A stretch of 64,000 bases of DNA, taken from NCBI RefSeq assembly GCF_900111995.1, contig NZ_FOKF01000004.1, positions 1 to 64,000 of the forward strand, read 5' to 3'. The notes beneath the pieces were generated by a model, which saw only the letters and a list, made by a program, of their open reading frames with translations, was not told the origin of the DNA and made no database searches. The stretch's first letter is position 1. Each line of letters starts with the position of its first letter. This DNA comes from Collimonas sp. OK607 (lineage in GTDB: Bacteria > Pseudomonadota > Gammaproteobacteria > Burkholderiales > Burkholderiaceae_D). Shown one piece after another: positions 21,701 to 42,359 of the stretch. A program made the position numbers and the translations under genes.

Positions 21701-23143
21701 ATGTTGTCAAATGAGCATAGCGTCACTGCGGCAAACGTAACGATTCGCGCACTACTGGATGCCCAGCGCCAGGCTTTCGTCGCCGCCGGCGCCGTCAGTG
21801 CCGACGAGCGCAAGGCGCGTTTGCAAAGCGCCATCGATATGCTGGTGAAGTACAACGATTTGCTGTGCGCTGCGATGGACAAGGATTTTGGCGGGCGTTC
21901 CGCCGTCTTTTCAATGATGAACGACATCCTGGGCGCGTTGGCGTCGCTCAAGCATGCGCGCGAGCACTTGGCGGATTGGATGCCGCAGCAAGCGCGTCCC
22001 AGCGTCGCCCCATTCGATAATTTCGGCGCCACCGCCTGGGTCCGCTATCAGCCGAAGGGCGTCGTCGGCATCATCGGTACCTGGAATGCGCCGGTATTCA
22101 CCTTGCTGTCGCCGCTGGCCAGCGTATTTGCGGCGGGTAACCGGGCAATTTTAAAACCGTCCGAAATCGCCCCGGCGACGGCCGAAGTCATGGCGACGGC
22201 GGTAGCAGAGTTTTTTGCGCCGGAGGTGCTGACGGTGGTCAACGGCGATAGCCAGATTGCCGCCGCCTTTAGCGAACAAGCCTGGAATCACCTGGTATTT
22301 ACCGGATCAACCGGCGTCGGCAAGGCGGTCATGCAAGCGGCGTCGGCCAATCTGGTGCCGGTGACGCTGGAGCTGGGCGGCAAATCTCCGGTATTGATCG
22401 GACGTAGTGCCGACATCCGCAATGCCGCCGAGCGGATTACCGTAGGCAAGGGTGCAAATTCCGGGCAGCTTTGCGTTTCCCCCGATGTGGTGTGGGTGGC
22501 GCAGGATCAGCTGGAACCGTTTATCGCTGCCGTGCGCGAGTTTTATGAAGGTTTGTTCCCCCGGATCGGCGCCAACCCCGATGTCGTGGCCATTGTCAAC
22601 GAGCGCCATTTCAAGCGGGTCGCCGGCTATATCGACGATGCCCGTTCACGGGGTGCCCGGGTAGAGACTGCCGGCAGCGGGGAGCCGCATTCGACAGAGC
22701 GCCGCATGCCTCTGCAGCTGGTCGTCAATCCGCCCGCCGACAGCCTGATTGCCACCCATGAGATATTCGGTCCGGCGCTGGTGATCAATACCTACGCGAA
22801 AATCGACGATGCGATCGCTGCCGTCAATGCGGGTGAGCGCCCGCTGGCCCTGTATTACTTCGGCGATGATGCGGCCGAGGAGCAGCGTGTTCTGGATCAA
22901 ACATTGTCGGGCGGCGTCTCCATCAACGACGTCACGATGCACCCGGCGTTGCACGATGCACCGTTTGGCGGCGTCGGCGCTTCGGGCATCGGTCATTATC
23001 ACGGTCATGAAGGTTTTCTGGAGTTCAGCCATGCGCGTAGCGTGTACAAAGCAGGCCAGCAAGATCCGCGCCGCGAATGGGGCATGTTGCCGCCGTATAG
23101 CGAGCAATTCGAACAAATGCTGCGTGCCGGCGTGAACCCGTAA
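21701..23143 (+). CDS. Aldehyde dehydrogenase, possibly for the steroid side-chain aldehyde
   Basis: A 480-residue NAD(P)-aldehyde dehydrogenase of the coniferyl-aldehyde/class 3 type. Catalytic C258 (GQLCVSPD), general base E224 (ELGGKSP), N129 (GTWNAPV) and K152 are all present. In bile-acid degraders, retro-aldol cleavage of the C5 side chain yields a C22 aldehyde that an aldehyde dehydrogenase (Sad in Pseudomonas) oxidises; this is the best candidate here, by context. The stop is 13 bp before the second MFS gene, so the two are probably cotranscribed. Confidence 0.9.
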   Translation: MLSNEHSVTAANVTIRALLDAQRQAFVAAGAVSADERKARLQSAIDMLVKYNDLLCAAMDKDFGGRSAVFSMMNDILGALASLKHAREHLADWMPQQARPSVAPFDNFGATAWVRYQPKGVVGIIGTWNAPVFTLLSPLASVFAAGNRAILKPSEIAPATAEVMATAVAEFFAPEVLTVVNGDSQIAAAFSEQAWNHLVFTGSTGVGKAVMQAASANLVPVTLELGGKSPVLIGRSADIRNAAERITVGKGANSGQLCVSPDVVWVAQDQLEPFIAAVREFYEGLFPRIGANPDVVAIVNERHFKRVAGYIDDARSRGARVETAGSGEPHSTERRMPLQLVVNPPADSLIATHEIFGPALVINTYAKIDDAIAAVNAGERPLALYYFGDDAAEEQRVLDQTLSGGVSINDVTMHPALHDAPFGGVGASGIGHYHGHEGFLEFSHARSVYKAGQQDPRREWGMLPPYSEQFEQMLRAGVNP

Positions 23144-25747: not shown

Positions 25748-26533
25748 TTATCGCCCTTCGTATCTGGGTTTGCGCTTTTCGATGAAGGCTTGCATGCCTT
25801 CCTTCTGATCCCGGCTGGCAAACAACAGCTGGTTGGCTTTGCGTTCCAGCATCAGTGCGACATCCAGTGGCGCATCCATGCCGGCGAGAACCACTTCCTT
25901 GATCTGCATTGCCGCCAGCGGTGGCATGGCGGCAATCGTGCGCGCCATTGCTAATGCTTCGGGTAAAACCTGGTCGTCGGCAACGACATTGCTGACCAGG
26001 CCCATGACTTGTGCTTCCCGCGCGGTGACCGGCTTGCCGGTCAATAAGATGCGCATGGCGTTGAATTTGCCGACTGCGCGCACCAGGCGCTGCGTGCCAC
26101 CGATGCCGGGCATGATGCCGATGCGGATTTCCGGCTGGGCGAAGCTGGCGCTTTCGCCGGCGATGACAATGTCACAATGCATCGCCAATTCGTTGCCGCC
26201 GCCAAATGCATACCCGCATACCGCCGCGATGACCGGTTTGGGGCAACGCTCGATGGGCGCCCACACCCGTTCCGTATGGCGCTGCAAGATATCTATGGCG
26301 CCGGCATCCGCCATGCTCTTGATATCGCCGCCTGCGGCGAACACTTTCTCACCCCCGGTGAGGACGATAACCCGCACCGACGCATCGGCCGACAGTTCGG
26401 TAAAGGCTTCCGAGAGCCGCGCCTGCAAACTCAGGCTGAGGGCGTTCGTGGCATCGGGCCGGTTCAGCAAGACCACCGCCACACCTGCTTCGGGGCGTTC
26501 GACAATCAATTCAGATGCGCCTGGATCGGACAC
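25748..26533 (-). CDS. Enoyl-CoA hydratase, canonical crotonase
   Basis: A 261-residue crotonase with both catalytic glutamates, in GGGNELAMHCD and AQPEIRIGIMPG, and the oxyanion loops FAAGGDIK and CGYAFGGG. Unlike the two other crotonases in the window it should be a true 2-enoyl-CoA hydratase. Possible roles are C5 side-chain beta-oxidation (EchA19-like) or degradation of the HIP chain. It is divergent from the SDR/side-chain operon at 26698 and shares the site-8 regulatory region. kshA follows 139 bp downstream with its own dyad site. Confidence 0.9.
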   Translation of the reverse strand: MSDPGASELIVERPEAGVAVVLLNRPDATNALSLSLQARLSEAFTELSADASVRVIVLTGGEKVFAAGGDIKSMADAGAIDILQRHTERVWAPIERCPKPVIAAVCGYAFGGGNELAMHCDIVIAGESASFAQPEIRIGIMPGIGGTQRLVRAVGKFNAMRILLTGKPVTAREAQVMGLVSNVVADDQVLPEALAMARTIAAMPPLAAMQIKEVVLAGMDAPLDVALMLERKANQLLFASRDQKEGMQAFIEKRKPRYEGR

Positions 26534-26609
26534 GTATTTCTCCCATAACGATATTCAATTGCAGCTTTGTGCACTACAGGCAAATCATCGTATTCAGGGA
26601 GTTCCGGAA

Positions 26610-26629
26610 CATCGTCCTTTCGGACGTAT
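26610..26629. promoter_or_regulatory. Island dyad, site 8 (bidirectional)
   Basis: CATCGTCC-tttc-GGACGTAT. It is flanked at exactly 20 bp on both sides: TATAGT (26650-26655) toward the side-chain operon and GATGAT (26589 down to 26584) toward the crotonase. One dyad could therefore serve two promoters. Confidence 0.75.
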
Positions 26630-26697
26630 TAAGGGTTGCTTCGTTCTCCTATAGTAGCCATACACGATACAACCCACGATACAACCGCGAAACGAAT

Positions 26698-27474
26698 ATG
26701 GCTGACACCGATAAATACAAACAGCGCCTGGTACTGATCACCGGCGGCACAAAAGGCATTGGCCGCGGCATCGCAGAAGCGTTCCTGGCCATGCATGACA
26801 ACGTGATCGTTTGTGCACGCACTAGTCCCGATACTTTGCCGGCCGCAGGTGGCCGCACAGCCAGCTTCATCGCCTGCGACGTCAAAGATCCCGAAGCGGT
26901 CAAAGCCTTGATTACTACTATAGGTGAACGCTACGGCCGACTCGACGTGCTAATCAATAACGCCGGCGGCAGTCCATCGGCCGACGCCGCCACGGCATCG
27001 CCGCGCTTTCATGAAAGCGTGATCAAGCTGAACCTGCTGGCGCCGCTGAACCTGGCCCAAGCGGCGAATGCGCTGATGCAGCAACAGCCGGACGGCGGCG
27101 TGATCGTCTTCGTCGGCAGCATCAGCGGCTTAAGGCCATCGCCTGGCACGGCAGCCTATGGCGCCGCCAAGGCCGGCGTACTCAGCCTGGTGACCTCGTT
27201 GGCGGTTGAATGGGCGCCCAAGGTGCGCGTGGTGGCGGTCAGCCCGGGGCTGGTCCAGACCGAACAATCGCATCTGCACTACGGCAACGAAGCCGGAATT
27301 GCCGCCGTCGGCGCCACCATCCCGGCCGGCCGCATGGCGGTGCCGGCCGATATTGCCAATGCCTGTCTGTTTGTCGCCTCACCGCAGGCGGCTTATATGA
27401 GCGGTGCCAATCTGTTGTTGCACGGCGGCGGCGAAAAGCCTGCCTTCCTTGTTGCGGCAAACGCCGGCGCCTGA
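26698..27474 (+). CDS. SDR dehydrogenase at head of the side-chain operon
   Basis: A 258-residue SDR with TGGTKGIGRGIA, NNAGGSP and a Ser...Tyr-x3-Lys site (VGSISGLRPS; AAYGAAKAG). It starts at ATG 26698, after the site-8 promoter (predicted start about 26662); the longer open frame begins upstream of that promoter and is rejected. As first gene of the operon for the C3 side chain (chsH2, chsE1, chsH1, ltp2, chsE2) it could be a 3-hydroxyacyl-CoA dehydrogenase or a 17-hydroxysteroid dehydrogenase acting on the retro-aldol product. The sequence does not decide. Confidence 0.87.
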   Translation: MADTDKYKQRLVLITGGTKGIGRGIAEAFLAMHDNVIVCARTSPDTLPAAGGRTASFIACDVKDPEAVKALITTIGERYGRLDVLINNAGGSPSADAATASPRFHESVIKLNLLAPLNLAQAANALMQQQPDGGVIVFVGSISGLRPSPGTAAYGAAKAGVLSLVTSLAVEWAPKVRVVAVSPGLVQTEQSHLHYGNEAGIAAVGATIPAGRMAVPADIANACLFVASPQAAYMSGANLLLHGGGEKPAFLVAANAGA

Positions 27475-27502: not shown

Positions 27503-28486
27503 GTGGCTGAACATGAGTGGATGAAAGAGATCCGCAACCTGGTGGGCAAGGAATACGGCCGCGTGTACGGCTGGGATCCGGTCAATGCGCCGATGGCGCG
27601 CCAGTGGTGCGAAGTAATGGGAATTAGCAATCCTGTGTATGCCGATGCAACTCTGGCAACTACTATCCACGGCAAGACCGTGGTGCCGCCGGCCATGCTG
27701 CAGGTATGGTGCATGGAGGGCTTGCACATGAATAACTACCCTCCCGGTTCAACGACTGAAAATCCGTATGAAGCGTTGAAACTGATCGAAGCGCATGGCT
27801 ATCCGGCCGTGGTCGCGGTGAACTCCGAACTTGAGTTCGACCGCTATCTGACGGCCGGTGAAAAAGTGTATTACACCACCCGGCTCGATGCGATCGGTGA
27901 GGAAAAGGCAACGGGACTCGGAACCGGCTATTTCGTCACGCTGATCATGACCTTCTTTGCCGAAGGCACCAAGTCGCGGGCGGAGGCCGATGAAAAGGTC
28001 GGGCAGCTTTTATTCCGTGTCTTTAAATTCCGTCCGGCCGCTGCCGTTGCTGCTCCAGCTCCAGCTGAAGTCCCGCAAAAAGCCAAGCCGAAGCGTCCGG
28101 TGCCAGGTGTCAGCGACGATACCCGCTTTTTCTGGGAAGGCACCAGGCAGGGCAAGTTGCTGATACAGCGTTGCACTGCCTGCAAGACCTTGCGTCATCC
28201 GCCCGGTCCGGTATGCCCGAGCTGCCATTCCTTCGAATGGGATGCGCAACAGGCATCCGGCCGCGGCAAGCTGTATTCCTTTGTTGTCATGCATTACCCC
28301 GAAGTGGCGCCATTCGATCATCCCAATCCGATTGGATTGATCGAGCTGGAAGAGGGCACCCGGCTGGTGGCGCAACTGGTTGGCGTCAAGTCAGAAGAGC
28401 TGGAAATCGGCCAGTCTTTGCAGGTCGAGTTCCACAATTTCGACGATGACATGACGCTGCCGCTGTTCCGGCCGGTGCCACGGTAA
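27503..28486 (+). CDS. chsH2: ChsH2-type MaoC plus DUF35 protein
   Basis: A 327-residue two-domain protein: a degenerate MaoC hot-dog domain (about 1-175), a Pro/Ala linker (about 176-200), and a DUF35 domain with the zinc ribbon C-x2-C...C-x2-C (RCTACKTL; VCPSCHS) and an OB fold. This is exactly ChsH2, which joins ChsH1 to hydrate the delta-17(20) enoyl-CoA and whose DUF35 domain binds the Ltp2 aldolase. GTG 27503 follows AAAGGAG (27489-27495). Confidence 0.94.
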   Translation: MAEHEWMKEIRNLVGKEYGRVYGWDPVNAPMARQWCEVMGISNPVYADATLATTIHGKTVVPPAMLQVWCMEGLHMNNYPPGSTTENPYEALKLIEAHGYPAVVAVNSELEFDRYLTAGEKVYYTTRLDAIGEEKATGLGTGYFVTLIMTFFAEGTKSRAEADEKVGQLLFRVFKFRPAAAVAAPAPAEVPQKAKPKRPVPGVSDDTRFFWEGTRQGKLLIQRCTACKTLRHPPGPVCPSCHSFEWDAQQASGRGKLYSFVVMHYPEVAPFDHPNPIGLIELEEGTRLVAQLVGVKSEELEIGQSLQVEFHNFDDDMTLPLFRPVPR

Positions 28487-28495: not shown

Positions 28496-29632
28496 ATGGA
28501 TTTTCAATTAACAGAAGATCAACGTGCCTACGCGGCAACGGCACACGATGTATTTGCCGATTATTGCAGCGACGAGCAAATGCAGCGTTTCGATAAATCG
28601 GGATTGCCGTTCCAGCAGGATTTATGGCAACAGTGCATCGCCACCGGCTTGCACACCATGATCGTGCCGGAAGTCGAAGACGGTCTTGGCCTGGGCATGG
28701 CGGAACTGATCAACGTGCTGGAAGAGCAAGGCCAGGCATTGGCGCTGGTGCCGCTGTGGGAGCATCAGCTTGCTGCCGCTGCCCTGGCGGATTTCGGCAC
28801 ACCCGGCTTGCGTCGGGATGTATTGGCAGCGGCGGTCGCCGGCACCGCGCTACTGACGGTGGCATTGGCATCCGTCGCTTCGCCTCAAGGTCACACGTTG
28901 CGGGCTGAAACAAACGACAGCGGCTGGGTCTTGAACGGGCACGCTACAGCCGTGCCGTTTGGCGGTTCTGCCACACATGCGCTGGTGGTAGCTGAAGTAG
29001 AAGGCGCCGCGCGTATTTTCCTGGCGGACTTAAGTGTCGCCGGGGTGCGTCGGATTACCGGCGTCAGCCAGCGTCATGAACAGATTGCCGACGTGTTTTT
29101 CGACAATGCACTGATCGGCACTGATGTGCTGCTGGCTGAGTCGGCCTTGCGCTGGCTGGAAAGCCGGGCGATTGCCTGCCTGGCCGCTTTGCAAGTGGGT
29201 GTCTCGGTGCAGCAATTGACGCGCACCGTGCAATACGTGAGCGAGCGCAAGCAGTTCGGCCGCCCGATCGGCACGTTCCAGCTGGTAGCCGGACAAATGG
29301 CGGACGGCCATATCGCCCTGGAAGCGTTGCGCACGTCGCTTTGGCAATTGACTTACCGGCTCGATGCCGGTGTCGGCGCCATGCCGCAAGCCTATGCCAC
29401 GCGCTACCTGGCGTGCGAGGCGGCGCATCGCATCGGACACATGGCGCAGCACGTGCACGGCGGTATCGGAGTCGATACCAGTTTTCCTATTCATCGCTTC
29501 CTGTTCTGGAGTCGCGCCTTGGGCGTCGCACTCGGCGGCACGGAGTGCAATCTTGCCAAGCTGGGCGACTGGCTTGCCGATCACGATTTATTGGGGTGGA
29601 AATATGACCTTGCAGAAGACAAAACATTTTGA
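28496..29632 (+). CDS. chsE1: Acyl-CoA dehydrogenase subunit, ChsE1/FadE28 type
   Basis: A 378-residue acyl-CoA dehydrogenase homologue with a reduced central domain and the C-terminal motif SERKQFGRPIGTFQLVAGQMAD. It probably forms the alpha2beta2 enzyme with the subunit encoded at 31263, which carries the canonical features. The complex dehydrogenates the 3-carbon side chain of steroid-22-oyl-CoA (ChsE1E2 in mycobacteria; Scd4AB in Pseudomonas). Its 3' end overlaps chsH1 by 29 bases. Confidence 0.9.
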   Translation: MDFQLTEDQRAYAATAHDVFADYCSDEQMQRFDKSGLPFQQDLWQQCIATGLHTMIVPEVEDGLGLGMAELINVLEEQGQALALVPLWEHQLAAAALADFGTPGLRRDVLAAAVAGTALLTVALASVASPQGHTLRAETNDSGWVLNGHATAVPFGGSATHALVVAEVEGAARIFLADLSVAGVRRITGVSQRHEQIADVFFDNALIGTDVLLAESALRWLESRAIACLAALQVGVSVQQLTRTVQYVSERKQFGRPIGTFQLVAGQMADGHIALEALRTSLWQLTYRLDAGVGAMPQAYATRYLACEAAHRIGHMAQHVHGGIGVDTSFPIHRFLFWSRALGVALGGTECNLAKLGDWLADHDLLGWKYDLAEDKTF

Positions 29633-30029
29633 AGAAATCGCGGTCGGCGACGAATTGCCGTCACTGTCGATCCCGATTACGGTACCGCTGATTGCCGGTG
29701 GCGCGATTGCCACGCGCGATTATTTTCCCGGACATCACGACCTGGAAGCCGCACGTGCACTGGGTTCGCCGCATATTTTCATGAATATCCTGACTACCAA
29801 CGGCCTGGTGCAGCGTTTCGTCGAGGATTGGGCAGGCAGCGCGGGCGTGCTGAAGTCGCTCAAGATAAAGCTGGGGGCACCCAATTATCCGGGTGACACC
29901 ATGACCTTCAGCGGACAAATCAGCAGCAAGGAAAGTGAAAGCCGCACCGTCGAAGTCAGCCTGAAGGGCAAAAATTCCATGGGAAATCACGTTACCGGCA
30001 CGGTCACCGTGCAGTTCCCTCACGTCTGA
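29604..30029 (+). CDS. chsH1: ChsH1-type MaoC hydratase subunit
   Basis: A 141-residue hot-dog protein starting at ATG 29604 inside the end of chsE1, behind GGGGTGGA. A much longer open frame exists upstream but runs through chsE1 in another register. Catalytic-type residues lie in RDYFPGHHDLEAARALGSPHIFMN. With ChsH2 it forms the heteromeric hydratase that hydrates C17-C20 before retro-aldol cleavage. Such a short gene nested in its neighbour is easily missed. Confidence 0.92.
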   Translation: MTLQKTKHFEEIAVGDELPSLSIPITVPLIAGGAIATRDYFPGHHDLEAARALGSPHIFMNILTTNGLVQRFVEDWAGSAGVLKSLKIKLGAPNYPGDTMTFSGQISSKESESRTVEVSLKGKNSMGNHVTGTVTVQFPHV

Positions 30030-30049: not shown

Positions 30050-31246
30050 ATGTCTAATCAATCACATACTCAGTCCAATTCGATATCGGGGCGCGCTGCC
30101 ATTGTCGGCCTGGGCGCTACCGAGTTTTCCAAGAATTCCGGACGCACCGAACTGAAACTGGCGATGGAAGCCACGCTGCAAGCCTTGCGCGATGCCGGCA
30201 TCGATCCTAGCGAAGTGGACGGTTTTTGTTCCTATTCGGTCGACAAGGTGCCGGAATATGAAATCGCGCGTTTGCTGGGTGCGCCGGATATCAAGTTCTT
30301 TTCGCAGATTCCGCATGGCGGCGGCGCTGCCTGCGCGCCGGTCATGCATGCCGCGATGGCGGTTGCCACCGGGATTGCCAAGACGGTGGTGGTGTATCGG
30401 GCAATGAACGAGCGTTCCTGGTATCGCTTCGGCAGCGGCAGCTACGGTTTCGGCGCCACACCGTTTTTCGAAAACGTCAATTACGGCTGGTATATGCCGC
30501 ACGGCTTGCATACGCCGGCCGCCTGGGTCGGCATGTTTGCCCGCCGTTACATGCATGAGTATGGCGCCACCAGTGAAGACTTCGGCCGCGTCTCGGTTGC
30601 CGTGCGCGATTTTGCCGCCACCAATCCGAATGCGTTTTTCTATGGCAAACCGATCACGCTGGAAGAGCATCAAGCCTCGCGCTGGATTTGCGAACCGTTG
30701 CGCTTGCTCGATTGCTGCCAGGAATCCGACGGTGCGGTTGCCATGATCATCACCTCGGTCGAACGGGCCCGCGATCTCAAACAAAAGCCGGTAATCATCA
30801 AGGCCGCGGCCCAAGGCCTCGCCGACGGCCAGCAGATCATGACCTCCTTTTATCGCAACGATATCGCCGGCCTGCCTGAGATGGGGCTGGTAGCCCGTCA
30901 GTTATGGGAGCAAAGCAGATTGACGCCGAGCGATATCCAGACCGCTGTCATCTATGACCATTTCACGCCTTTCGTCTTGCCGCAACTGGAAGAGTTCGGC
31001 TTTGTGAAACGCGGAGAAGCGAAGGATTTCGTGCGCGCCGGCCATCACGCGCGTGGCGGCCTGTTGCCGATCAATACTCACGGCGGACAGTTGGGCGAAG
31101 CCTACATCCACGGCATGAACGGCATCGCAGAAGGCGTACGCCAGGTGCGCGGCAGCGCCGTCAACCAGGTGCCGGATGTGCATAACGTGCTGGTGACTGC
31201 AGGCACGGGCGTGCCCACCAGCGGTTTGATTCTTGGCAACGCGTGA
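30050..31246 (+). CDS. ltp2: Ltp2-type steroid aldolase (thiolase superfamily)
   Basis: A 398-residue thiolase-fold lipid-transfer protein without the thiolase cysteine site; the C-terminal NTHGGQLGEAYIHGMN and the YDHFTPFVLPQLEEFGF segment match Ltp2. Ltp2 with the DUF35 domain of ChsH2 cleaves 17-hydroxy-20-carboxyl-CoA by retro-aldol reaction, giving the 17-ketone and propionyl-CoA. Order here is chsH2-chsE1-chsH1-ltp2-chsE2, shuffled relative to mycobacteria. AGGAAGGA lies 7 bases before the ATG. Confidence 0.93.
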   Translation: MSNQSHTQSNSISGRAAIVGLGATEFSKNSGRTELKLAMEATLQALRDAGIDPSEVDGFCSYSVDKVPEYEIARLLGAPDIKFFSQIPHGGGAACAPVMHAAMAVATGIAKTVVVYRAMNERSWYRFGSGSYGFGATPFFENVNYGWYMPHGLHTPAAWVGMFARRYMHEYGATSEDFGRVSVAVRDFAATNPNAFFYGKPITLEEHQASRWICEPLRLLDCCQESDGAVAMIITSVERARDLKQKPVIIKAAAQGLADGQQIMTSFYRNDIAGLPEMGLVARQLWEQSRLTPSDIQTAVIYDHFTPFVLPQLEEFGFVKRGEAKDFVRAGHHARGGLLPINTHGGQLGEAYIHGMNGIAEGVRQVRGSAVNQVPDVHNVLVTAGTGVPTSGLILGNA

Positions 31247-31262
31247 GCAGGGGAGACTTCAC

Positions 31263-32432
31263 ATGTTTGTAGACCTCACGCCGGAACAGCACAAGTTGCG
31301 CATCAAGGTGCGCGACTATTTCAACACCATGATGACGCCCGAACTGCGGATGCAGTTGCGCGGCGCCGAAAGCGGCGATCTGTTTCGCGACCTGATCCGG
31401 CAGATGGGCCGCGACGGCTGGCTGGCGGTCGGCTGGCCCAAGGAACACGGCGGCCAGGGTTATGCGGCCACCGAGCAAATGATTTTTTTCCAGGAAGCCA
31501 ATATTGCCGGCGCGCCGTTACCTTTCGTGACGATCAGCACGGTAGGACCGGCCCTGATGCAGCACGGATCGGCGCAGCAGCAAAAGAAATTCTTGCCGGG
31601 CATGGCCGCCGGCGAGATCATTTTCGCGATCGGCTATTCCGAGCCGAATGCCGGATCCGACCTGGCAACGTTGAGCACCCAGGCACGCCTTGACGGCGAG
31701 CGTTTCATCGTCAACGGCAACAAGTTGTGGACTTCCGGCGTGGAAGCGGCCGACTACGTGTGGCTGGCCGCTCGCACCAGTACTGAACTGGCGCGGCACA
31801 AGGGCGTATCGCTGCTGATAGTCGATACCAAGGCAGCTGGTTTTTCGCATACGCCAATCGATACGGTGGGCAACTCTACTGCTGCCACTTATTACGACAA
31901 TGTCGAGGTGCCGCTGGATATGCTGGTCGGCGAACTGAACGGCGGCTGGCGTTTGATCACGGCGCAGCTCAATCATGAACGACTCGGGCTTGGCTCCTGG
32001 TCGGACAAGGTGGTGGCGCAGTTCCGGCGCGTGCTGATCTGGGCGCGGGTCCGCGACGAGCACGGCCAGCGCGCAGCGGATCAGCCATGGGTCAGGCGTG
32101 CGCTTGCCGAGTGTTATGCGCGGCTGGAAGCGATGCGTCTGATCAATTTCCGCATTGCCGCGGATCTGGAAGCCGGATCGATGGATGTCGCTCTGGCGTC
32201 AACCACCAAAGTCTACGGCTCCGAAAGCGCCATAGAAATCTTGCGCAAGCTGACCGAAGTGGTGGGTGGCGGCGGGCTGGTGCGCTCGGGTTCCGCAGCG
32301 GCCCTGCTGATGGGTGAACTGGAATACGAAACGCGGGCGGCAACGCTGTTGACATTCGGCGGCGGCACCAATGAACTCCAGCGCGAACTGATAGCGCAGT
32401 TCGGGTTGAACATGCCGCGTCCGGTACGTTGA
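31263..32432 (+). CDS. chsE2: Acyl-CoA dehydrogenase subunit, ChsE2/FadE29 type
   Basis: A 389-residue acyl-CoA dehydrogenase with complete signature regions: GYSEPNAGSDLATL, NGNKLWTSGVEAADYVW and GGGTNELQRELIAQFGL. Partner of the short subunit at 28496 for delta-17(20) desaturation of the C3 side chain. ATG 31263 with GGGGAGA (31250-31256) is preferred over the longer frame that overlaps ltp2. The ligase fusion starts 35 bp after its stop. Confidence 0.9.
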   Translation: MFVDLTPEQHKLRIKVRDYFNTMMTPELRMQLRGAESGDLFRDLIRQMGRDGWLAVGWPKEHGGQGYAATEQMIFFQEANIAGAPLPFVTISTVGPALMQHGSAQQQKKFLPGMAAGEIIFAIGYSEPNAGSDLATLSTQARLDGERFIVNGNKLWTSGVEAADYVWLAARTSTELARHKGVSLLIVDTKAAGFSHTPIDTVGNSTAATYYDNVEVPLDMLVGELNGGWRLITAQLNHERLGLGSWSDKVVAQFRRVLIWARVRDEHGQRAADQPWVRRALAECYARLEAMRLINFRIAADLEAGSMDVALASTTKVYGSESAIEILRKLTEVVGGGGLVRSGSAAALLMGELEYETRAATLLTFGGGTNELQRELIAQFGLNMPRPVR

Positions 32433-32467: not shown

Positions 32468-35374
32468 ATGACAACCATGGCGTCGCGTGTACGCGTGACC
32501 CGCGAAGAGACGCAGGCGAAACTCGATTTGCGCAACGCGCAGTCGGCGCGCCACAAGGGTTCGCAAATCTACTGCACTGCAGAGCGGGTGGAAGAGAGCG
32601 CGCAGCGCTTTGCGTTGCGACCGTGCCTGTATTACGGCGACCAGACTTATACCTACGCGCAAATGAACGAAGAAGCCAATCGCATCGCGCATGCCGCGCA
32701 TGCCAATGGCGTGCGGCGCGGCGACGTGGTCGGTCTTTGCCTGGAAAACCGGCCTGGCTTTATTTTTGTCTGGCTCGGCCTGGCGAAGGTGGGCGCGACG
32801 GTTGCTTTCCTCAATACCAATGTGACCGGTAAAACCCTGGCGCACGCGCTGGCGGCGGCCAACGCGGACAAGGTGGTGGTCGGTGAGGAATGCCTGCAGA
32901 ATTTCGATTGCGCGGAACTGCGCGGCAAGGCGTCGTACTGGCTGTGGGCCGATACAGAGCGTCCGGCCGACAAGAAATTGAAATCGATCTGCGACTTTGA
33001 TCTCAGCGAACGGGCGCGCGAATGCCCGGTTTCGAATCCACCCGCACACTGGCGTGACGGTTTGGTGGCTGAGAATCCTGCGGTCTACATTTTTACATCC
33101 GGCACAACGGGTTTGCCGAAGGCAGCGATTGTCAGCCACGCGCGCTGGCTGATTACCGCCGACGTCATGCAAGTCACGATGGGCGCGACGCCGGCCGATT
33201 GTTTCTATTGTTTCCTGCCGCTTTATCATGGCGCGGCGTCGTTGTCGGCGGTGGCCACGGCGTTTGCTGCCGGCGCTAGCCTGGCATTGCGGCGAAAGTT
33301 CAGCCGGCGGGAATTCTGGAACGACGTACGTCGCTATCAGGTCAGCATTTGCCAGTATGTCGGAGAAATCTGCCGCTTTCTGCTGATCGAACCGGAGCGC
33401 GTCGATGACCGCTCGCACAGCTTGCGGAAAATGGTGGGCGCGGGGCTGTCGGCGGAAGTATGGCAAAAATTCGTGCAGCGTTTCGGCGACCTTGACATCT
33501 ACGAAGGCTGGGGCGCGACGGAAGCCAACACCAATACCATCAACGTCGACAATGAACTGGGTTCATGCGGCCGGGTGCCGTTCTGGGAAAAGACGAATTT
33601 GCGGATTGTCCGCTACGACGTCGAAAACGAAACTTATCCACGCGATGCCAACGGTTTTTATCTGCCTTGCGATGCGGATGAAGTCGGCGAAGCGATCGGC
33701 ATGGTGGTCGATATGCCGGATATCGTGGCCGGGCGTTTCGAAGGCTATACCTCTGCCGAAGCGACCGACAAGAAAATCTTGCGCAATGTGTTTGCGCCAG
33801 GCGACGCCTGGTGGGCATCCGGCGATCTGTTGCGCTGCGACCCTGAAGGCTACTGTTATTTTATCGACCGTATCGGCGACACTTACCGTTGGAACAGCGA
33901 AAATGTATCAACGGTTGAAGTCACGGACAACCTCAGTGATTTCCCCGGCATGGATACGCTCACCATTTACGGTGTGCAGGTACCCGGCCACGAAGGACGC
34001 GCTGGCATGGCCGCCATCGTCATGGGCGCCGGCCAGAGTTTCGATCCGCAGGCATTTTATGCGCTCAGCGCGGAGCGCCTGCCTCGCTATGCCGCGCCGC
34101 TGTTCGTACGGGTGAACGCCAGCGCCGACATGACCACGACGTTCAAGCTGCGCAAGGTGGATTTGCAGCGCGAAGGGTATGACGCAACCGTGATCGGCGA
34201 TCCGCTGTATGTGCGGGATGACCACGCGAAAACCTATGTCCCGCTGACGCCGGATGCGGTGGCGCGCGCACTTGGCTCTGGAGTCCAGGCCAAGGCCGCG
34301 AACGATGAACAGGGTGCAGCAGCCATACCGGCCACCGGCCGGATCCGGGCAAAGCTTGAATTTCCGTTTTCGCCGCCACTGGCGGATGGCTCGGTGGTCG
34401 CGGTTGCGCCTGGAATCTTGTGGGCGCGCATGCCGATGCCGATGCGGCTCGACCACATCAATGTCTATCTGTTACGCGATGTCGATGGCTGGGTGCTGGT
34501 GGATACCGGCCTCAACAGCGATGCCGTGCGTGAGTTGTGGGAAGTGATTTTCAGCCGGCACCTGGATGGCCTGCCGGTGAAGATGGTGTTGTGTACACAT
34601 TTCCACCTGGACCATGCGGGCGTGGCGCATTGGTTGACCGAGCGCTGCAATGTGCCGTTGTGCATGAGCCTGGGCGAATTCATGATGCTGCAGTTTGCGG
34701 CATCGCCGATGCCGGATCCGTTGCCGCCGGTGCAACAAGAGTTCTATACTCGCTCCGGCATGCCAGCCGATGCGCAAGAGCAGATGCTCAAGGGAATTCG
34801 CAGCCACCCCATGCTGGCGCCGCCGGTCAAGGCATTCCGCCGGATCCGGGATGGCGACCAGCTTCGTATCGGCGCGCGCCGCTGGCGGGTTGTAGTGGGA
34901 GAAGGACATTCACCCGAACATGCCTGCTTGTATAGTGCGGAAGACAAGATTCTGATTTCAGGCGATCAATTGCTGCCAGGAATCAGTTCCAATGTGTCGG
35001 TATCTTGCATCGAACCTGAAGCGAATCCATTGAAACTGTGGCTGGCATCGCTCGACCGCCTGGCTGCACTGGCACCGGACACGCTGGTATTGCCATCTCA
35101 TCAACAGGTGTTTCGCGGCTTGCATCCGCGGGTGCGGGAGTTGCACGCGCATCACGAGCAGCAATTCGATATGTTGCGTGAGATGTTTGTAGGCGACAAT
35201 ACCTATACGGCGTTCGATGCCATGCAAAAGATGTTTCCAAAGTTGCGTCATGCCACGGATTATATTCTGGCGTTGGGCGAGGCTATTGCGCATTTGTCAT
35301 GGCTGTGCGAGAACGGAGAACTGCGCAGAGAGTTGGGTAAGGATGGCCTGTACCGGTTTCATAAAGCGACATAG
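32468..35374 (+). CDS. Fusion: FATP-type acyl-CoA ligase + metallo-beta-lactamase hydrolase
   Basis: A single 968-residue open frame with two complete enzymes. Residues 1 to about 600 are an adenylate-forming ligase of the very-long-chain/FATP (FadD17, bile-acid CoA ligase) type: P-loop YIFTSGTTGLPKAA (207-220), YEGWGATEAN (345-354), SGDLL (451) and RYRW-like motif TYRWNSENVSTVEV (472-485), catalytic Lys region TTTFKLRK (around 560). After a 45-residue linker, residues about 645-960 form a metallo-beta-lactamase fold with every metal ligand: H711, H713, D715, H716, H814, D833, H878. ATG 32468 follows GGGAGAG. The ligase should make a steroid-CoA; the hydrolase may be an acyl-CoA thioesterase or act on conjugates. 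I know of no described enzyme of this architecture. Confidence 0.9.
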   Translation: MTTMASRVRVTREETQAKLDLRNAQSARHKGSQIYCTAERVEESAQRFALRPCLYYGDQTYTYAQMNEEANRIAHAAHANGVRRGDVVGLCLENRPGFIFVWLGLAKVGATVAFLNTNVTGKTLAHALAAANADKVVVGEECLQNFDCAELRGKASYWLWADTERPADKKLKSICDFDLSERARECPVSNPPAHWRDGLVAENPAVYIFTSGTTGLPKAAIVSHARWLITADVMQVTMGATPADCFYCFLPLYHGAASLSAVATAFAAGASLALRRKFSRREFWNDVRRYQVSICQYVGEICRFLLIEPERVDDRSHSLRKMVGAGLSAEVWQKFVQRFGDLDIYEGWGATEANTNTINVDNELGSCGRVPFWEKTNLRIVRYDVENETYPRDANGFYLPCDADEVGEAIGMVVDMPDIVAGRFEGYTSAEATDKKILRNVFAPGDAWWASGDLLRCDPEGYCYFIDRIGDTYRWNSENVSTVEVTDNLSDFPGMDTLTIYGVQVPGHEGRAGMAAIVMGAGQSFDPQAFYALSAERLPRYAAPLFVRVNASADMTTTFKLRKVDLQREGYDATVIGDPLYVRDDHAKTYVPLTPDAVARALGSGVQAKAANDEQGAAAIPATGRIRAKLEFPFSPPLADGSVVAVAPGILWARMPMPMRLDHINVYLLRDVDGWVLVDTGLNSDAVRELWEVIFSRHLDGLPVKMVLCTHFHLDHAGVAHWLTERCNVPLCMSLGEFMMLQFAASPMPDPLPPVQQEFYTRSGMPADAQEQMLKGIRSHPMLAPPVKAFRRIRDGDQLRIGARRWRVVVGEGHSPEHACLYSAEDKILISGDQLLPGISSNVSVSCIEPEANPLKLWLASLDRLAALAPDTLVLPSHQQVFRGLHPRVRELHAHHEQQFDMLREMFVGDNTYTAFDAMQKMFPKLRHATDYILALGEAIAHLSWLCENGELRRELGKDGLYRFHKAT

Positions 35375-35436: not shown

Positions 35437-36624
35437 ATGAATGAAATAGAGTCCTGGCGCGAGGAAGTGCGCGCGTGGCTGGAACAGAATTGTCCGGCGT
35501 CGATGCGGTTGCCGATCGTGCCAGATGACATGGTCTGGGGCGGCAGCCAGGTGGAGTTCGGCAGCGCCGACCAGCGCGTCTGGTTCGAGCGCATGCGCGA
35601 CCGCGGCTGGTTTGCCCCGGACTGGCCGACAGCCTACGGCGGCGGCGGTTTGTCGCCCAGGCATGCACGCGTGCTGGAGCAGGAAATGCTGCGTCTCGGC
35701 TGTCGTCAGCCGCAATACAATCTCGGCATCTGGATGCTGGGGCCGGTGCTCCTGGAATATGGCAGCGAAGAACAAAAACAAACGCATCTGAAGCCGATGA
35801 TGCGCGGTACGGCACGCTGGTGCCAGGGTTTCAGCGAGCCGAACGCCGGCTCCGACTTGGCCAGCCTGAGAACCTCGGCGCGCCGCGAAGGCGATGAACT
35901 GATCATCAACGGTTCCAAGATATGGACATCCTACGGTGAAAAATCCGACTGGATGTATGCCTTGGTACGCACCGATCCCGCTGCCGCAATCAAGCAACAG
36001 GGCATCAGTTTCGTGCTGATCGACATGCACGCGCCCGGCGTCACCGTCAAGCCGATTGAATTGATCAGCGGGAAATCCAGTTTTTGCGAAGTTTTTTTCG
36101 ACGATGTCCGGGTGCCGGCAGGGAATGTCGTGGGGCCATGGAACGGCGGCTGGAGTGTTGCGAAAAAATTGCTGCAGCACGAACGCGCCGCGATGTCGAA
36201 ATTCAGCGAGGGCAGCGCGCCTTCGCATGACATCCTGCAAGTCGCAAGCGGCTATCTGTTCGACGATCAGGGACGTTGCACCGAGCCGGTGCTGCGTGAT
36301 CGTATGGCCGGCGTGTTGATGGATAGCCATGCGTTTGCCCTGACCCATCAGCGGGTCAAGGAAGAGGCGCTGGCGCGCATGGATGTCAGCGGACCGGTAT
36401 CGATCATGAAGCTGGTGATGACGGAACAGGAAGCTGCCAAATATGAATTGCTGATGCAGATCATGGGGCACCGCGCGTTAGGTTGGGAAGAGCAAGGATT
36501 CACTGCGCTGGAACATGATATCTGCCGTACCTGGCTGCTCTCGAAAACTTACGCGATCGCGGGCGGTTCCAGCGAGGTCCAGCTCAATATCATCGCCAAG
36601 CGCGTCCTGGGTCTACCTGCATAA
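35437..36624 (+). CDS. Acyl-CoA dehydrogenase, large/canonical subunit
   Basis: A 395-residue acyl-CoA dehydrogenase with GFSEPNAGSDLAS, NGSKIWTSYGEKSDWMY and the C-terminal YAIAGGSSEVQLNIIAKRVLG. It pairs with the degenerate paralogue encoded 8 bp downstream, giving the third heteromeric pair in this window. The position next to two CoA ligases suggests it begins beta-oxidation of the longer (C5) bile-acid side chain, comparable to FadE26/27 or FadE34. Start ATG 35437 follows GCAGGAGAC. Confidence 0.9.
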   Translation: MNEIESWREEVRAWLEQNCPASMRLPIVPDDMVWGGSQVEFGSADQRVWFERMRDRGWFAPDWPTAYGGGGLSPRHARVLEQEMLRLGCRQPQYNLGIWMLGPVLLEYGSEEQKQTHLKPMMRGTARWCQGFSEPNAGSDLASLRTSARREGDELIINGSKIWTSYGEKSDWMYALVRTDPAAAIKQQGISFVLIDMHAPGVTVKPIELISGKSSFCEVFFDDVRVPAGNVVGPWNGGWSVAKKLLQHERAAMSKFSEGSAPSHDILQVASGYLFDDQGRCTEPVLRDRMAGVLMDSHAFALTHQRVKEEALARMDVSGPVSIMKLVMTEQEAAKYELLMQIMGHRALGWEEQGFTALEHDICRTWLLSKTYAIAGGSSEVQLNIIAKRVLGLPA

Positions 36625-36632: not shown

Positions 36633-37793
36633 ATGAGCATGTTATTAAACGATGAGCAGCGTCAGCTGCGCGACAGCGCGCGCGACTTTCTGTCGGAACA
36701 GGCGCCTGTGGGTGCCTTGCGTCATGTGCGCGATGCCGGTCCGGCCGGATTCCCTCGTGGTTATGACCCGGCGTTGTGGCTGCAGGTGGTGGAGATGGGC
36801 TGGCCGGCAATGATTTTCCCTGAGCAGTACGATGGACTGGACTTCGGTTACAAAGGCTTGGGGGCTGTATTTGAACAAGCGGGCCGCACCTTGGCAGCGT
36901 TGCCTTTGCTGCCGTCGGTAGTGTTATGCGGCGAAATTCTGATGCGTGCGGGTAATGAAGCGCAACGCCAGTCGTGGTTGCCGCGGATTGCGGCGGGCGA
37001 GGCTTTCATGGCGCTGGCGCTGGAGGAGGGCGGTCGTCACGATCCTGCTTCGGTGACCACCACGGCACGCCGCAATGACAGTGGCGACGGCTGGGTCATC
37101 GACGGCGCCAAGAGCTTTGTGCTGGACGGCCATATTGCCGACGCGCTGATCGTGGTGGCGCGTATAGCGGACCAACAGAACCAGCCAGAGCGGATGGGGC
37201 TGTTCCTGGTCGATCCGGAACTTCCCGGTGTGGAAGTGTTGCGCACCTATATGGTGGATAGCCGTAATGCGGCGCAGCTGCGCTTGAACCAGGTCAAGCT
37301 GGATTCACAAGCGCTGCTGGGTAGCGTGGATAACGCTTTCCCGGTGCTGGATGCAGCATTGGACCGCGCCCGAATCTGCCTGGCGGCGGAAGCGCTGGGC
37401 ATCATCGATGAAAGTTTTGAGCGCACGCTAGCGTACCTGAAAGAACGGGTTCAGTTCGATGTGGCGATCGGTTCATTCCAGGCGCTGCAACATCGGGCCG
37501 CGCGTCTGTATTCTGAAATAGAAATGCTGCGCAGCTGTGTTGCTGCGGCGCTGGACGCTATTGATAGCAATAGCGAAAGCAGCGATGTGGCTGTTCTGGC
37601 GAGCCTGGCTAAGGCGAAGTCAGCCGATCTGGGCGAGAAAATGCTGAATGAAGCGGTGCAGTTGCATGGCGGCATAGGCGTCACCGATGAACTTGATATA
37701 GGACTGTTTCTTAAGCGTGTCCGCACCATCCAGCAAACGCTGGGCGACGGTATATTTCACCGTGAGCGCTACGCGCGGCTCAAGGGTTTTTAG
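36633..37793 (+). CDS. Acyl-CoA dehydrogenase, small/degenerate subunit
   Basis: A 386-residue partner-type acyl-CoA dehydrogenase: the beta-domain motif is degraded (ALALEEGGRHDPAS), whereas the C-terminal YLKERVQFDVAIGSFQALQHRAARLYSE and QLHGGIGVTDELDIGLFLKR are kept. It starts 8 bp after the canonical subunit's stop, with AAGGA upstream. It should complete the shared FAD sites of a heterotetramer. Confidence 0.9.
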   Translation: MSMLLNDEQRQLRDSARDFLSEQAPVGALRHVRDAGPAGFPRGYDPALWLQVVEMGWPAMIFPEQYDGLDFGYKGLGAVFEQAGRTLAALPLLPSVVLCGEILMRAGNEAQRQSWLPRIAAGEAFMALALEEGGRHDPASVTTTARRNDSGDGWVIDGAKSFVLDGHIADALIVVARIADQQNQPERMGLFLVDPELPGVEVLRTYMVDSRNAAQLRLNQVKLDSQALLGSVDNAFPVLDAALDRARICLAAEALGIIDESFERTLAYLKERVQFDVAIGSFQALQHRAARLYSEIEMLRSCVAAALDAIDSNSESSDVAVLASLAKAKSADLGEKMLNEAVQLHGGIGVTDELDIGLFLKRVRTIQQTLGDGIFHRERYARLKGF

Positions 37794-37822: not shown

Positions 37823-39532
37823 ATGGCAAACGATGTGGCAACCATGATCAGCATTTCCGAAAGAGTAGCATTGAACCAGGCGCAGCTGACCGCGCCCGGT
37901 GCGCCATTCGAACTGGCACAGGATGCCGGTGTTTCTTATTATCGCCATGCCCCCGATATTCTGGCGGACATGATCGCCGGCGCACGCAGCCACGGCAACA
38001 AGGAATTCATGGTGTATCGCGGCGATCGCTGGACGTTCGATCGTTTCTTCGCCGCCGCCGATGCACTCGCGACGCAAATGCAGCGGCGTCTGGGCGTCCG
38101 CGCCGGCGACACCGTGGCGATCGCCATGCGCAATCGTCCTGAATGGGGTGTAGCCTTCGTCGCCGCAACCATGCTCGGTGCTGTTCCTGCACCCCTGAAC
38201 AGCCTCGGTTTGCGCGACGAACTGCTGCAGGCGCTGACTTTGGTAACGCCGAAGGTTTTATTGTGCGACGCCGAGCGTTTCGCCCACGTGGGCCAGGATC
38301 TCGCGGCGTTGGGTTGCACTGCCGTGGTGGTGGCGGCGGATCCGGCCGTGCTCAATAGCGCGGTGCTGGCGTTCGACGACATGCTGGCCGCTGGCGGTGC
38401 GCCGCTTGCGTCACCCGGTGTGACGGCTGGCGATCCGGCCCTGATCCTGTTTACTTCTGGCGCCACCAGCCACGCCAAGGCGGTACTGTCGACGCAGCGT
38501 GCAGTGTGCCAGGCATTGCAAAACATTAATTACATCGGCATGCTGGCGGCGATGAGCTCGCCTGATACGGTGGCAAAGATCATGCAGCGCGGACATCCGC
38601 CGACTACGCTCACCGCAGTGCCTTTGTTCCACGTGAGCGGCTTGCATGCACAGTTCCTGAGTTCGCTGATCAATGGCCGGCGGCTGGTGTTTACGCATCG
38701 CTGGAATGTGTCGGAAGCGCTGGAAATGATCCGCGCGGAACGCATTACCCAGTTTAACGGTGCGCCGTCGATGGTGATGCAGCTGATGGCGGGGGTGATG
38801 GCCGGCGATGCGGACGCCTCCAGTAGCCTGGGCGGGATCGGCTTCGGCGGTGCCGGATTGCCGCAACGCCTGATCGACGATTTGCTGAAATACCGTACCA
38901 ACGTCATGGCAGGAATCGGTTTTGGCCTGACTGAAACCAACGGCGTCGGCGCCGCCTCTTCCGGCGAACTGTTTCATTACAAGCCACGCAGCGCCGGGCT
39001 GTTGTCGCCGATCGTCGAAGCCATGATCCTCGACGAAACAGACAATCCTGCGCCGGCCGGACAAACCGGCGAGATCTGCCTGCGCGGCGTGACCCTGATG
39101 CAAGGCTATTTGCACAATCCGCAAGCCACTGAAGACGCGATGCAAGACGGCTGGTTCCGTACCGGCGACGTCGGCTATCTGGATCAGGAAGGCTTTTTGT
39201 GCGTGGTCGACCGCATCAAGGATGTGATCAACCGCAACGGCGAAAAAATATCTTCCGCTGAAATTGAATCCTGCCTGCTATCGCATGCGCATGTCATGGA
39301 AGCGGCGGTGTTCGCAGCGCCCGACGACATGACAGGGGAAAAGGTGGTGGCGGTAGTGGTGGCGAAGCCCGGGGCGATGCTCACGACGGAGGATGTCCAG
39401 GCGCACGTGGCAGCGCGTTTGGCGGCTTACAAGGTGCCGGCACAGATCTACGTCAGAAGCGAAGTGTTGCCGCGTAATCCGGTGGGGAAATTATTGAAGC
39501 CGGTATTGAGGACGATGTACACGGGGAAGTAA
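37823..39532 (+). CDS. Steroid acyl-CoA synthetase (AMP-forming)
   Basis: A 569-residue adenylate-forming ligase of the fatty-acyl-CoA synthetase class: P-loop LFTSGATSHAK, GFGLTETNGVGA, TGDVGYLDQEGFLCVVDRIKD and the C-terminal PRNPVGKLLKPVLR with the catalytic Lys. The Lys in the P-loop is preceded by SHA, unlike the usual GxPK. In this operon it probably activates the carboxyl of a bile acid (C24) or of the C22 acid after the aldehyde step. It is the last gene before a strong terminator. The FadD3-like ligase at 51105 is a different subfamily. Confidence 0.9.
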   Translation: MANDVATMISISERVALNQAQLTAPGAPFELAQDAGVSYYRHAPDILADMIAGARSHGNKEFMVYRGDRWTFDRFFAAADALATQMQRRLGVRAGDTVAIAMRNRPEWGVAFVAATMLGAVPAPLNSLGLRDELLQALTLVTPKVLLCDAERFAHVGQDLAALGCTAVVVAADPAVLNSAVLAFDDMLAAGGAPLASPGVTAGDPALILFTSGATSHAKAVLSTQRAVCQALQNINYIGMLAAMSSPDTVAKIMQRGHPPTTLTAVPLFHVSGLHAQFLSSLINGRRLVFTHRWNVSEALEMIRAERITQFNGAPSMVMQLMAGVMAGDADASSSLGGIGFGGAGLPQRLIDDLLKYRTNVMAGIGFGLTETNGVGAASSGELFHYKPRSAGLLSPIVEAMILDETDNPAPAGQTGEICLRGVTLMQGYLHNPQATEDAMQDGWFRTGDVGYLDQEGFLCVVDRIKDVINRNGEKISSAEIESCLLSHAHVMEAAVFAAPDDMTGEKVVAVVVAKPGAMLTTEDVQAHVAARLAAYKVPAQIYVRSEVLPRNPVGKLLKPVLRTMYTGK

Positions 39533-39607: not shown

Positions 39608-40630
39608 TTATCCCCTGGCGCGAGCCATGGTGATGGCGGTATCTTCGATCATGTCTTCCTGGCCGCCAACCATGCCGCGTCTGCCGAGCTCAAGCAAGAT
39701 GTCGCGTGCAGGAACGCCGTACTTCTTTTCTGCGCGTTTGGCAAACAGCAGGAAGCTGGAATACACGCCGGCGTAGCCCAGCGTGAGCGAATCGCGGTCG
39801 ATCCGGATCGGATGATCCATCAGCGGCACCACGATATCTTCGGCGACGTCGGAAATGCGGAACACGTCGACGCCGGTCTCAATCCCCATCCGGTTGCATA
39901 CCGCAATAAACACTTCCATCGGCGTATTGCCTGCGCCAGCGCCGAGGCCGGCAGCTGCGGCGTCGATGCGGGTCGCGCCGGCTTCCACCGCAACGATGGA
40001 ATTGGCGATGCCCATGGCCAGGTTGTGATGGCCGTGGAAGCCCAGTTCGGTTGCCGGATCCAGCACTTCGCGCACCGCGCTCAAGCGCTCACGCACGTCG
40101 TCAGGCAGCATGTAGCCGGCCGAATCGGTGACATAAATGCAATTGGCGCCGTAGCTTTCCATCAGCTTGGCCTGTTTCGCCAGGCCTTGCGGCGATTGCA
40201 TGTGCGCCATCATCAGGAAACCGACCGTATCCAGGCCGAGCTTGCGCGCCAGGCCGATATGCTGTTCGGAGACGTCCGCTTCGGTGCAGTGCGTGGCGAC
40301 CCGTATCGTCGACACCCCCAGGTCCATCGCCATGCGCAGGTGATCTACCGTGCCGATGCCCGGAATCAGCAGCGCCGAGACCTTGGCCTGCTTCATCAGA
40401 GGCACCACTGCCGACAGATACTCTTCGTCGCTATGCGCCGGGAAGCCGTAATTTACCGAAGAACCGCCTAAACCGTCGCCGTGGGTCACTTCGATCAGCG
40501 GCACGCCTGCATTGTCCAGCCCGCACGCTACCGCCTTCATTTGCTCCAATGTCATTTGATGGCGTTTGGGATGCATGCCATCACGCAGCGTCATGTCGTG
40601 GACGGTGATTTTTTTACCAGTCAGATTCAT
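39608..40630 (-). CDS. hsaF: 4-hydroxy-2-oxovalerate/oxohexanoate aldolase
   Basis: A 340-residue metal-dependent class II aldolase of the DmpG/BphI/HsaF family, which splits 4-hydroxy-2-oxo acids to pyruvate and an aldehyde. The active site reads TLRDGMH with R16, D17 and H20, and the metal pair H199-x-H201 (FHGHHN) is in place. It channels the aldehyde to the dehydrogenase encoded just upstream on the same strand (12 bp). Equivalent to tesG of Comamonas. Last gene of the minus-strand hsaBDEGF operon. Confidence 0.96.
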
Positions 40631-40642
40631 ATTTTTCCTTGC

Positions 40643-41527: not shown

Positions 41528-41558
41528 GGATTTTCCTGGGTTTCTGTTTTTGACAAAT

Positions 41559-42359
41559 TTAGTCGGCAAACTTGATGGCGCATCCGCCCAAGCCGCCAAT
41601 TTGCATCGTGAAATGATCGCCGGCCTTGACCGGAATCAGTGCCGCAAGCGAGCCGGAAAGTATCAGTTCGCCCTTGCGGAATGGAATGCCGAAACGGCCC
41701 AGCGTATTGGCCAGCCACGCCACTGCCTCGGCAGGATGGCCCTGTACGGCAGCGCCTTTTCCGCTGCATGCCAGTTTCTCGTTGCAATACAGGTCCATGT
41801 GCAATGCCGCCAGGTCCAGGCCGCGCGGGTCGGTGCGTTGCGCGCCAATCACGAATACGCCGCACGAAGCGTTGTCGGCCACGGTGTCCTGGATGCGGAT
41901 TTCCCAGTTGCGAATCCGCGAATCGACGATTTCAAAGCACGGGGCAAGCCAGTCGGTGGCATCAAGCACATCTTCACGGGTCAGATTGGTGCCGTGCAAA
42001 TCCTGTTTCAGCATGAAGGCGATTTCGCCTTCAGCGCGAGGCTGGATCAGGCCAACCTGCTGCATGCTGATGGTGGCGCCGTCAGGGAAATGCATGGCAT
42101 CGGTAAGGAAGCCGAAATCCGGCTGATGCACATTGAGCATTTCTTGCACCGGCTTGGAGGTAACCCCGATTTTCTTGCCGACCACGGTTTCTCCGGCTGC
42201 CTGGCGCAGTTGCAGCGTGTGCAGCGAAATCTGGTAGGCATCGTCGATCGTCATGTCGGCATAACGCGCCGTCAGCGGATCGCGCGTGCTGCGTTCGCGC
42301 ATTGCCTGGAACAATTCGTCGCCCAGCGCTTCGATAAGTTCGCGGTTCATCGCTATCAT
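41559..42359 (-). CDS. hsaE: 2-hydroxypenta/hexa-2,4-dienoate hydratase
   Basis: A 266-residue member of the MhpD/HsaE hydratase family, adding water to the 2-hydroxydienoate released by HsaD. Typical phrases are [32 protein letters not shown] with the metal-binding glutamates, and [14 protein letters not shown] 42359 overlaps the hsaD stop (ATGATAG), suggesting coupling; ATG 42350 is the alternative. Equivalent to tesE. Confidence 0.95.

Follow-up and report, generated by a model that had tools for sequence, protein, structure and literature searches.

In C. testosteroni CNB-2 the genes for steroid side-chain degradation follow the order Shy2, Scd2B, hydratase, Sal2, Scd2A, RS06820, a gap, Scd1A, Scd1B and RS06840, RS06820 being the CoA ligase for the C3 side-chain and RS06840 the ligase for the C5 side-chain (accessible sections of PMC8399759). 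Mutants of strain TA441 showed that the enzymes encoded by five genes of this set, a dehydrogenase, a hydratase and an aldolase, act on the C3 side-chain (accessible sections of PMC12502768). Sterolibacterium denitrificans has a putative metallo-beta-lactamase (MBL), SEDNCHOL_10303, encoded by a gene of its own in a steroid side-chain cluster; a phytoene dehydrogenase-like gene separates it from a putative C22 acyl-CoA synthetase nearby (accessible sections of PMC6678751); we liken it to the protein described here by its description. The DNA analysed here (the window) is a stretch of 64,000 nucleotides from Collimonas sp. OK607 (contig NZ_FOKF01000004.1, positions 1 to 64,000, forward strand), in which one open frame, 32468-35374 (+), encodes a FATP-type acyl-CoA ligase fused to an MBL domain.

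The ligase and the operon have been published before, and so has the occurrence of an MBL gene in clusters of this kind (PMC6678751, accessible sections). To the extent covered by the literature searches, what is new is the one instance of fusion, the overlap of stop and start codons between the two genes in relatives, and a steroid-linked MBL clade. Searches on MBL, fusion, StdA, MBLAC2 and thioesterases returned no ligase-MBL fusion and no described function for this MBL, and agree in this with the preliminary description of the locus, which knew of no characterised enzyme with this layout. In the accessible text the word 'lactamase' is absent from PMC8399759, PMC12502768 and PMC13101464 and occurs once in PMC6678751 (in the Sterolibacterium legend), and 'thioesterase' is absent from PMC8399759 and PMC13101464. 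The reading we favour, with a probability of roughly 55%, is a lineage-specific in-frame fusion of a StdA2-type ligase to an MBL that hydrolyses side-chain CoA thioesters.

Two domains in one reading frame

The frame comprises 968 codons with a lone stop at its end and has a good start region, GGGAGAG lying six bases 5' of the start ATG at 32468. It holds, as the preliminary description proposed, a full ligase and a full MBL without interruption, with the motifs of both halves intact in the 968 residues. Ligase homology stops at residue 603 and MBL homology starts at about 627, which leaves a linker of about 23 residues; the ligases of relatives finish ...RALGG or similar, and the fusion reads ...RALG and then continues. 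There is no in-frame ATG, GTG or TTG between residues 599 and 642, so that separate production of the MBL half is hardly possible. An internal restart at the sole in-frame start near the junction, a GTG at residue 598, is unlikely: it has no obvious ribosome site and would add ligase residues. In the predicted model of the full chain (pTM 0.56) pLDDT is below 50 at residues 605-631, as expected if the linker is a flexible tether, and the two halves have no defined mutual placement.

The ligase half passes the full-length family bar of NF006134 ('long-chain-acyl-CoA synthetase', 702.9 bits over residues 5-601, cut-off 625) and matches Pfam AMP-binding (PF00501) on residues 42-395 with 205.7 bits. 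AMP-binding_C (PF13193) gave no match on this half at E <= 0.001, the C-terminal part being caught by the FATP-type full-length model. T210-SGTTG-215, E352, G452-D453, R468, K560 and K563 are unchanged in 31/31 aligned ligase rows, two of which are identical; we take TSGTTG, E352, GD452-453 and R468 to be adenylation motifs and K560/K563 to form the catalytic lysine region. At every position where at least 95% of relatives concur the ligase half agrees with them. Its best solved relative is FATP2, and it is 57-59% identical to Pseudomonas relatives that have the ligase-MBL pair. Ligases shorter than 450 amino acids (loci L049, L051 and L052) were left out of this alignment, in which L080 duplicates L009; L076 and L081 were left out of the alignments as repeats of L038 and L002, and alignments A3 (17 rows) and A4 (41 rows) are selections from the available rows.

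Membership of the FATP-type family was counted as likeness to the StdA2 / CTCNB1_RS06820 type, the C3-side-chain (C22) steroid-CoA ligase of beta- and gammaproteobacteria, with which the ligase half shares its place after Scd2A/ChsE2 and before Scd1A, Scd1B and StdA1. Enzymes of that type are single as described (in the accessible text), whereas here an MBL domain is attached. With CasI, the actinobacterial steroid-22-oyl-CoA synthetase, the ligase half has the proposed reaction in common but misses the family bar (NF052587, 206.6 bits, cut-off 900). By its position in the operon it is better read as a C22 (StdA2-type) ligase than as a cholate ligase.

The C-terminal half matches Pfam Lactamase_B (PF00753) on residues 662-878 with 103.8 bits and B_lactamase-like_C (PF21221) on 913-952 with 27.7 bits (cut-off 27). 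All seven metal ligands listed in the preliminary description, H711, H713, D715, H716, H814, D833 and H878, are where it placed them and are invariant in 57/57 aligned MBL rows. The predicted model of this half has a pLDDT of 91.7, and M782 is its one departure from the >=95% agreement among 38 steroid-locus rows. By these measures neither the ligase nor the MBL half looks dead. A true class B beta-lactamase was considered and rejected, the scores being 36.5 bits for B1 (cut-off 200) and 35.6 bits for B3 (cut-off 240).

The steroid-linked MBL clade and its proposed substrate

A search of genome contigs with the whole fusion protein gave 42 loci. In the MBL tree a branch supported at 100/100 separates the steroid-locus proteins from a housekeeping-type paralogue; the steroid-locus label rests on locus contents, and the 'housekeeping' label covers 18 loci from the own genome and the family sample, with surroundings read for the own genome only (L081). 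Y667, C820, S841, W858 and L865 occur in all 39 rows from steroid loci, the row of the window included, and in 0/18 others. The housekeeping-type paralogue is found in 29/35 other sampled genomes of the family (E 1e-60) and also in the own genome, where it (C81:27156-28208; L002, L081) is 42% identical to the MBL half and has solved relatives titled beta-lactamases.

The closest solved kin of the MBL half are the Burkholderia entries 5u8o, 5i0p and 6ao1 ('beta-lactamase domain protein'), with 44-48% identity and Z-scores of 43-44 over 329-344 residues; they carry 0/5 of the steroid-clade residues and therefore look housekeeping-type. Two thioesterases share the fold. PqsE, named in the PDB as 2-aminobenzoylacetyl-CoA thioesterase, is matched by the profile of the MBL half at E ~2e-14 and has a fold Z-score of 23.9, but identity is about 19-20%, its substrate is another and it is a stand-alone protein. 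Human MBLAC2, an acyl-CoA thioesterase, likewise cleaves CoA thioesters with an MBL fold but stands alone and acts on another substrate; it is likened here by description. Hydrolysis of acyl-CoA by a human MBL protein is reported in the accessible part of PMC7949124.

The N-terminal half would adenylate the C22 steroid acid left after shortening of the C5 side-chain and form its CoA thioester, which ChsE1E2, ChsH1H2 and Ltp2 would then process. The C-terminal half would turn side-chain CoA thioesters by hydrolysis back into free acids and so recover CoA when later steps are slow. The C22 substrate, the thioesterase activity and the overflow role are all inferred, and we give about even odds to the MBL being a steroid-CoA thioesterase by which CoA is recovered from a stalled pathway. 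In TA441, blocking the hydratase or the aldolase by mutation leads to a build-up of free acids, VII' and XIII', from beyond the dehydrogenase step, and the actual degradation metabolites there are CoA esters (PMC12502768, accessible sections); since free acids pile up from CoA-ester intermediates, some thioesterase probably acts in that strain. A steroid-CoA thioesterase would explain why side-chain intermediates are released in free-acid form, with a bearing on bacterial cross-feeding and on steroid-acid production for drug synthesis, and the fused protein would be a handy single-chain test object. More tentatively, the MBL might be the missing dedicated steroid-CoA thioesterase, paired with StdA2 or StdA1 in a controlled, ATP-driven cycle of activation and release of C22/C24 acids. 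Such a cycle would explain the free acids of the C3-side-chain mutants and make the fusion a natural sign of one unit.

The neighbours of the MBL gene vary. In 12/12 Rhodocyclales/gammaproteobacterial loci (L053, L054, L055, L057, L059-L064, L066 and L069) it adjoins a StdA1-like ligase, without a FATP ligase, and a KshA-like gene lies upstream on the opposite strand. In L056 and L058 it is followed by two dehydrogenases and a StdA1-like ligase, again without a FATP ligase; chsE2 stands upstream of it in L056, and L058 begins at the MBL. In one genome (G238) ligase and MBL are about 12 kb apart, and in Pseudomonas fragi and P. bubulae, which have the ligase and chsE2, no MBL homologue (>=100 bits) was found in the 21.8-kb locus. 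A fixed ligase-MBL unit was rejected, as the MBL without a FATP ligase and the ligase without an MBL both occur. Because the neighbours range from a StdA1-like ligase to chsE2 and dehydrogenases (L056), the MBL tracks side-chain CoA chemistry and not one ligase.

Several points weigh against assigning the fusion to C22 thioester chemistry: in the 12 loci and in L056 and L058 the MBL occurs without the FATP ligase; StdA2 and RS06825, the CNB-2 gene number at the place of the MBL, are likened to the two halves by gene position; the free acids of PMC12502768 (accessible sections) come from acid-extracted cultures and might be products of another thioesterase; and the MBL fold also spans lactonases, nucleases and others. 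Outside its own subfamily and TTHA1429, moreover, the solved structures nearest in fold to the MBL half are a paraoxonase from Bacillus (Z 28.9) and human LACTB2 (Z 25.3), ahead of PqsE. In the main rival reading the fusion is real, and the MBL acts on a non-thioester, for instance a steroid lactone or ester from side-chain or ring breakdown. The ranking of paraoxonase and LACTB2 before PqsE fits it, as does the conservation of the MBL where no FATP-type ligase adjoins it, in some cases close to a KshA-like ring oxygenase, but every context examined has at least one CoA-ester neighbour (a StdA2-like or StdA1-like ligase, ChsE2 or Scd1-like dehydrogenases), and we regard this rival as possible and rather unlikely.

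Separate genes in relatives

Ligase and MBL genes are adjacent, ligase first, in 22 of the 42 loci, and their frames differ in all 22. In 20 of these the MBL frame has an ATG or GTG that reaches back over the ligase stop, with an overlap of 4 nt in 10 loci and of 8 nt in 10; some of the 20 also have later possible MBL start codons. In L032 and L038 a TTG stands at the 4-nt overlap, with ATGs 8 nt (L032) or 32 and 65 nt (L038) past the ligase stop. Overlapping stop and start codons of this kind would fit translational coupling in the relatives. A second survey covered 399 genomes from a different family of the same order and matched 14 of them, 12 with both genes; by coordinates the pairs are in different frames in 12/12, the species being partly those of the 42-locus scan (L087 = L034, L095 = L047). 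The stretches examined in G629 and in G482 (one of the 12 pairs) also have two separate frames.

Split versions of the protein are thus neighbours throughout the 22 loci and 12 pairs, as the preliminary description had suggested one might look for, and its other search, for the same two-domain architecture elsewhere, turned up no second lineage with the fusion. No other fused match was found among 60 relatives, 392 genomes of the family, 399 of the order and 369 of the class, samples that overlap one another and are draws from larger groups, and none of 11 matching records in a plasmid collection has one place spanning 80% of the fusion query. The frame of the G1230 ligase stays open for 1045 codons; here an open frame overlaps a dehydrogenase that lies in another frame, and it was rejected as a fusion. 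The fusion as a conserved architecture was rejected on the 22/22 loci and 12/12 pairs, and a conserved bifunctional device is not supported, where the preliminary description had thought of a proofreading or release device; the hydrolysis of CoA esters by the MBL stays plausible. The joining looks like a rare, lineage-specific, local event. The fusion itself is probably a one-off; what the comparison brings out is an MBL-fold hydrolase that, in beta- and gammaproteobacteria, accompanies the CoA ligases of the steroid side-chain.

Three records met in these searches are observations in their own right. The contigs of L030 (Singulisphaera, Planctomycetota) and L040 (Rhodanobacter) carry a typical betaproteobacterial cluster at 56-88% identity and are possibly mis-binned public records. 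On the Vibrio alfacsensis plasmid pYa108 (L086) a ligase 53% identical is followed by thiolase-family and OB-fold genes, and the annotation of that stretch lists no MBL.

The preliminary description named a sequencing error as what might undo the fusion. Two ordinary overlapping genes whose frames were joined by bases lost or added at the junction would agree with the separate pairs in 22/22 and 12/12 cases, with the sole fused case being this one, known from assembled sequence in one genome among those sampled, and with an assembly in 90 contigs; in addition, a tetramer ATGA in the linker (34305-34308) might be a masked stop-start overlap, two lost bases being enough to hide an ordinary one of 4 nt. 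As ligase homology to 603 and MBL homology from about 627 share one frame, any error must sit between them. We tried 360 single-base insertions and deletions over codons 604-627, and none (0/360) gives a 4- or 8-nt overlap, the smallest being 14 nt; one indel is thus insufficient and two would be needed within about 70 nt, in a linker that stays open across 23 codons. No internal stops occur in 128 ABC-transporter, 22 acyl-CoA dehydrogenase and 27 fusion-protein matches in the same assembly, within the matched stretches. We consider an artefact improbable and the fused frame probably real. It could have arisen by a small change that took out both the stop of the ligase and the start of the MBL and left the 23-residue linker in their place, and the flexible tether would probably do little beyond fixing a 1:1 ratio and proximity, which coupled translation already favours in the relatives.

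Operon and surrounding genes

The operon of the window (Table 1) has the order reported for CNB-2, and RS06825, absent from the table in the accessible sections of PMC8399759, falls at the place of the MBL. The preliminary description had placed the fusion inside the side-chain operon, and the genes for Ltp2 and ChsE2 do lie immediately upstream. In the pair loci a ChsE2 homologue is directly 5' of the ligase in 18/22 and the first dehydrogenase directly 3' of the MBL in 19/22; three Pseudomonas pair loci have neither beside the pair, and L049 starts within the ligase.

Table 1. Features of the fusion gene and its operon (window positions, except the amidase, which lies past the window end)
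Feature	Position	Strand	Basis
Aldehyde dehydrogenase, candidate for the Sad step making C22 acid (role inferred)	21701..23143	+	PF00171 279.9 bits
SDR oxidoreductase, first gene of conserved operon	26515..27474	+	NF005893 388.7 bits, cut-off 255; conserved position
ChsH2-like protein (MaoC-like + DUF35/OB domain)	27503..28486	+	domains
ChsE1-like acyl-CoA dehydrogenase	28496..29632	+	family match, position
ChsH1-like MaoC protein	29688..30029 (approximate start codon)	+	family match
Ltp2/Sal2-like steroid aldolase	30050..31246	+	NF005892 687.3 bits, cut-off 469
ChsE2-like acyl-CoA dehydrogenase	31233..32432	+	family match, position
FATP-type (StdA2-like) steroid C22 acyl-CoA ligase half, residues 1-603	32468..34276	+	in-frame homology up to residue 603, where relatives' ligases stop
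23-residue linker	34277..34345	+	occupies site of ligase gene end and MBL gene start in relatives
MBL-fold hydrolase half, residues 627-968 and stop	34346..35374	+	seven metal ligands present
Acyl-CoA dehydrogenase at Scd1A position	35437..36624	+	family match, position, gene order in PMC8399759 (accessible sections)
Acyl-CoA dehydrogenase at Scd1B position	36633..37793	+	family match, position, gene order in PMC8399759 (accessible sections)
CasG/StdA1-like C24 steroid-CoA ligase	37823..39532	+	NF052580 338.4 bits, under cut-off 750; position
Amidase, candidate bile-salt amidase near Sal-/Shy-like genes	C67:65019-66650 (L082 5020-6651, -)		PF01425 294.3 bits; Tat-signal match 20.7 bits, under cut-off 22.7

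On the same contig, about 1-6 kb past the window end, lie the amidase, a DUF35-MaoC protein of the Shy type and a thiolase-like aldolase of the Sal type. Because of these Sal- and Shy-like genes the aldolytic route is very likely in use here, to judge from gene content. That route leaves a free C22 acid in need of re-activation, which would be the job of the ligase half, as its position suggests.

The preliminary description also entertained a coupled deconjugation and activation of bile acids, in which the MBL half would strip glycine or taurine from the conjugates; beyond the location in a cluster of bile-acid side-chain type nothing found links the MBL to amides, and no amidase family matches the MBL half in profile searches. 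Given a distinct amidase gene on the contig and a fused ligase that fits the C22 step, after deconjugation and the first side-chain shortening, we hold this reading to be very improbable.

None of the 14 other genomes of the genus, of which one is only 86% complete, gave a match to Ltp2 at E 1e-100, so that the cluster is a patchy trait and was probably acquired. Four minus-strand genes at 39608-44541, for a DmpG-type aldolase, an acetaldehyde dehydrogenase, an alpha/beta hydrolase and a flavin reductase, look like A-ring degradation genes; they sit between the side-chain operon and plus-strand genes for an HsaA-like monooxygenase and a KstD-like dehydrogenase. A KshA-like Rieske oxygenase (PF19298) is encoded at 24511-25608 (-).

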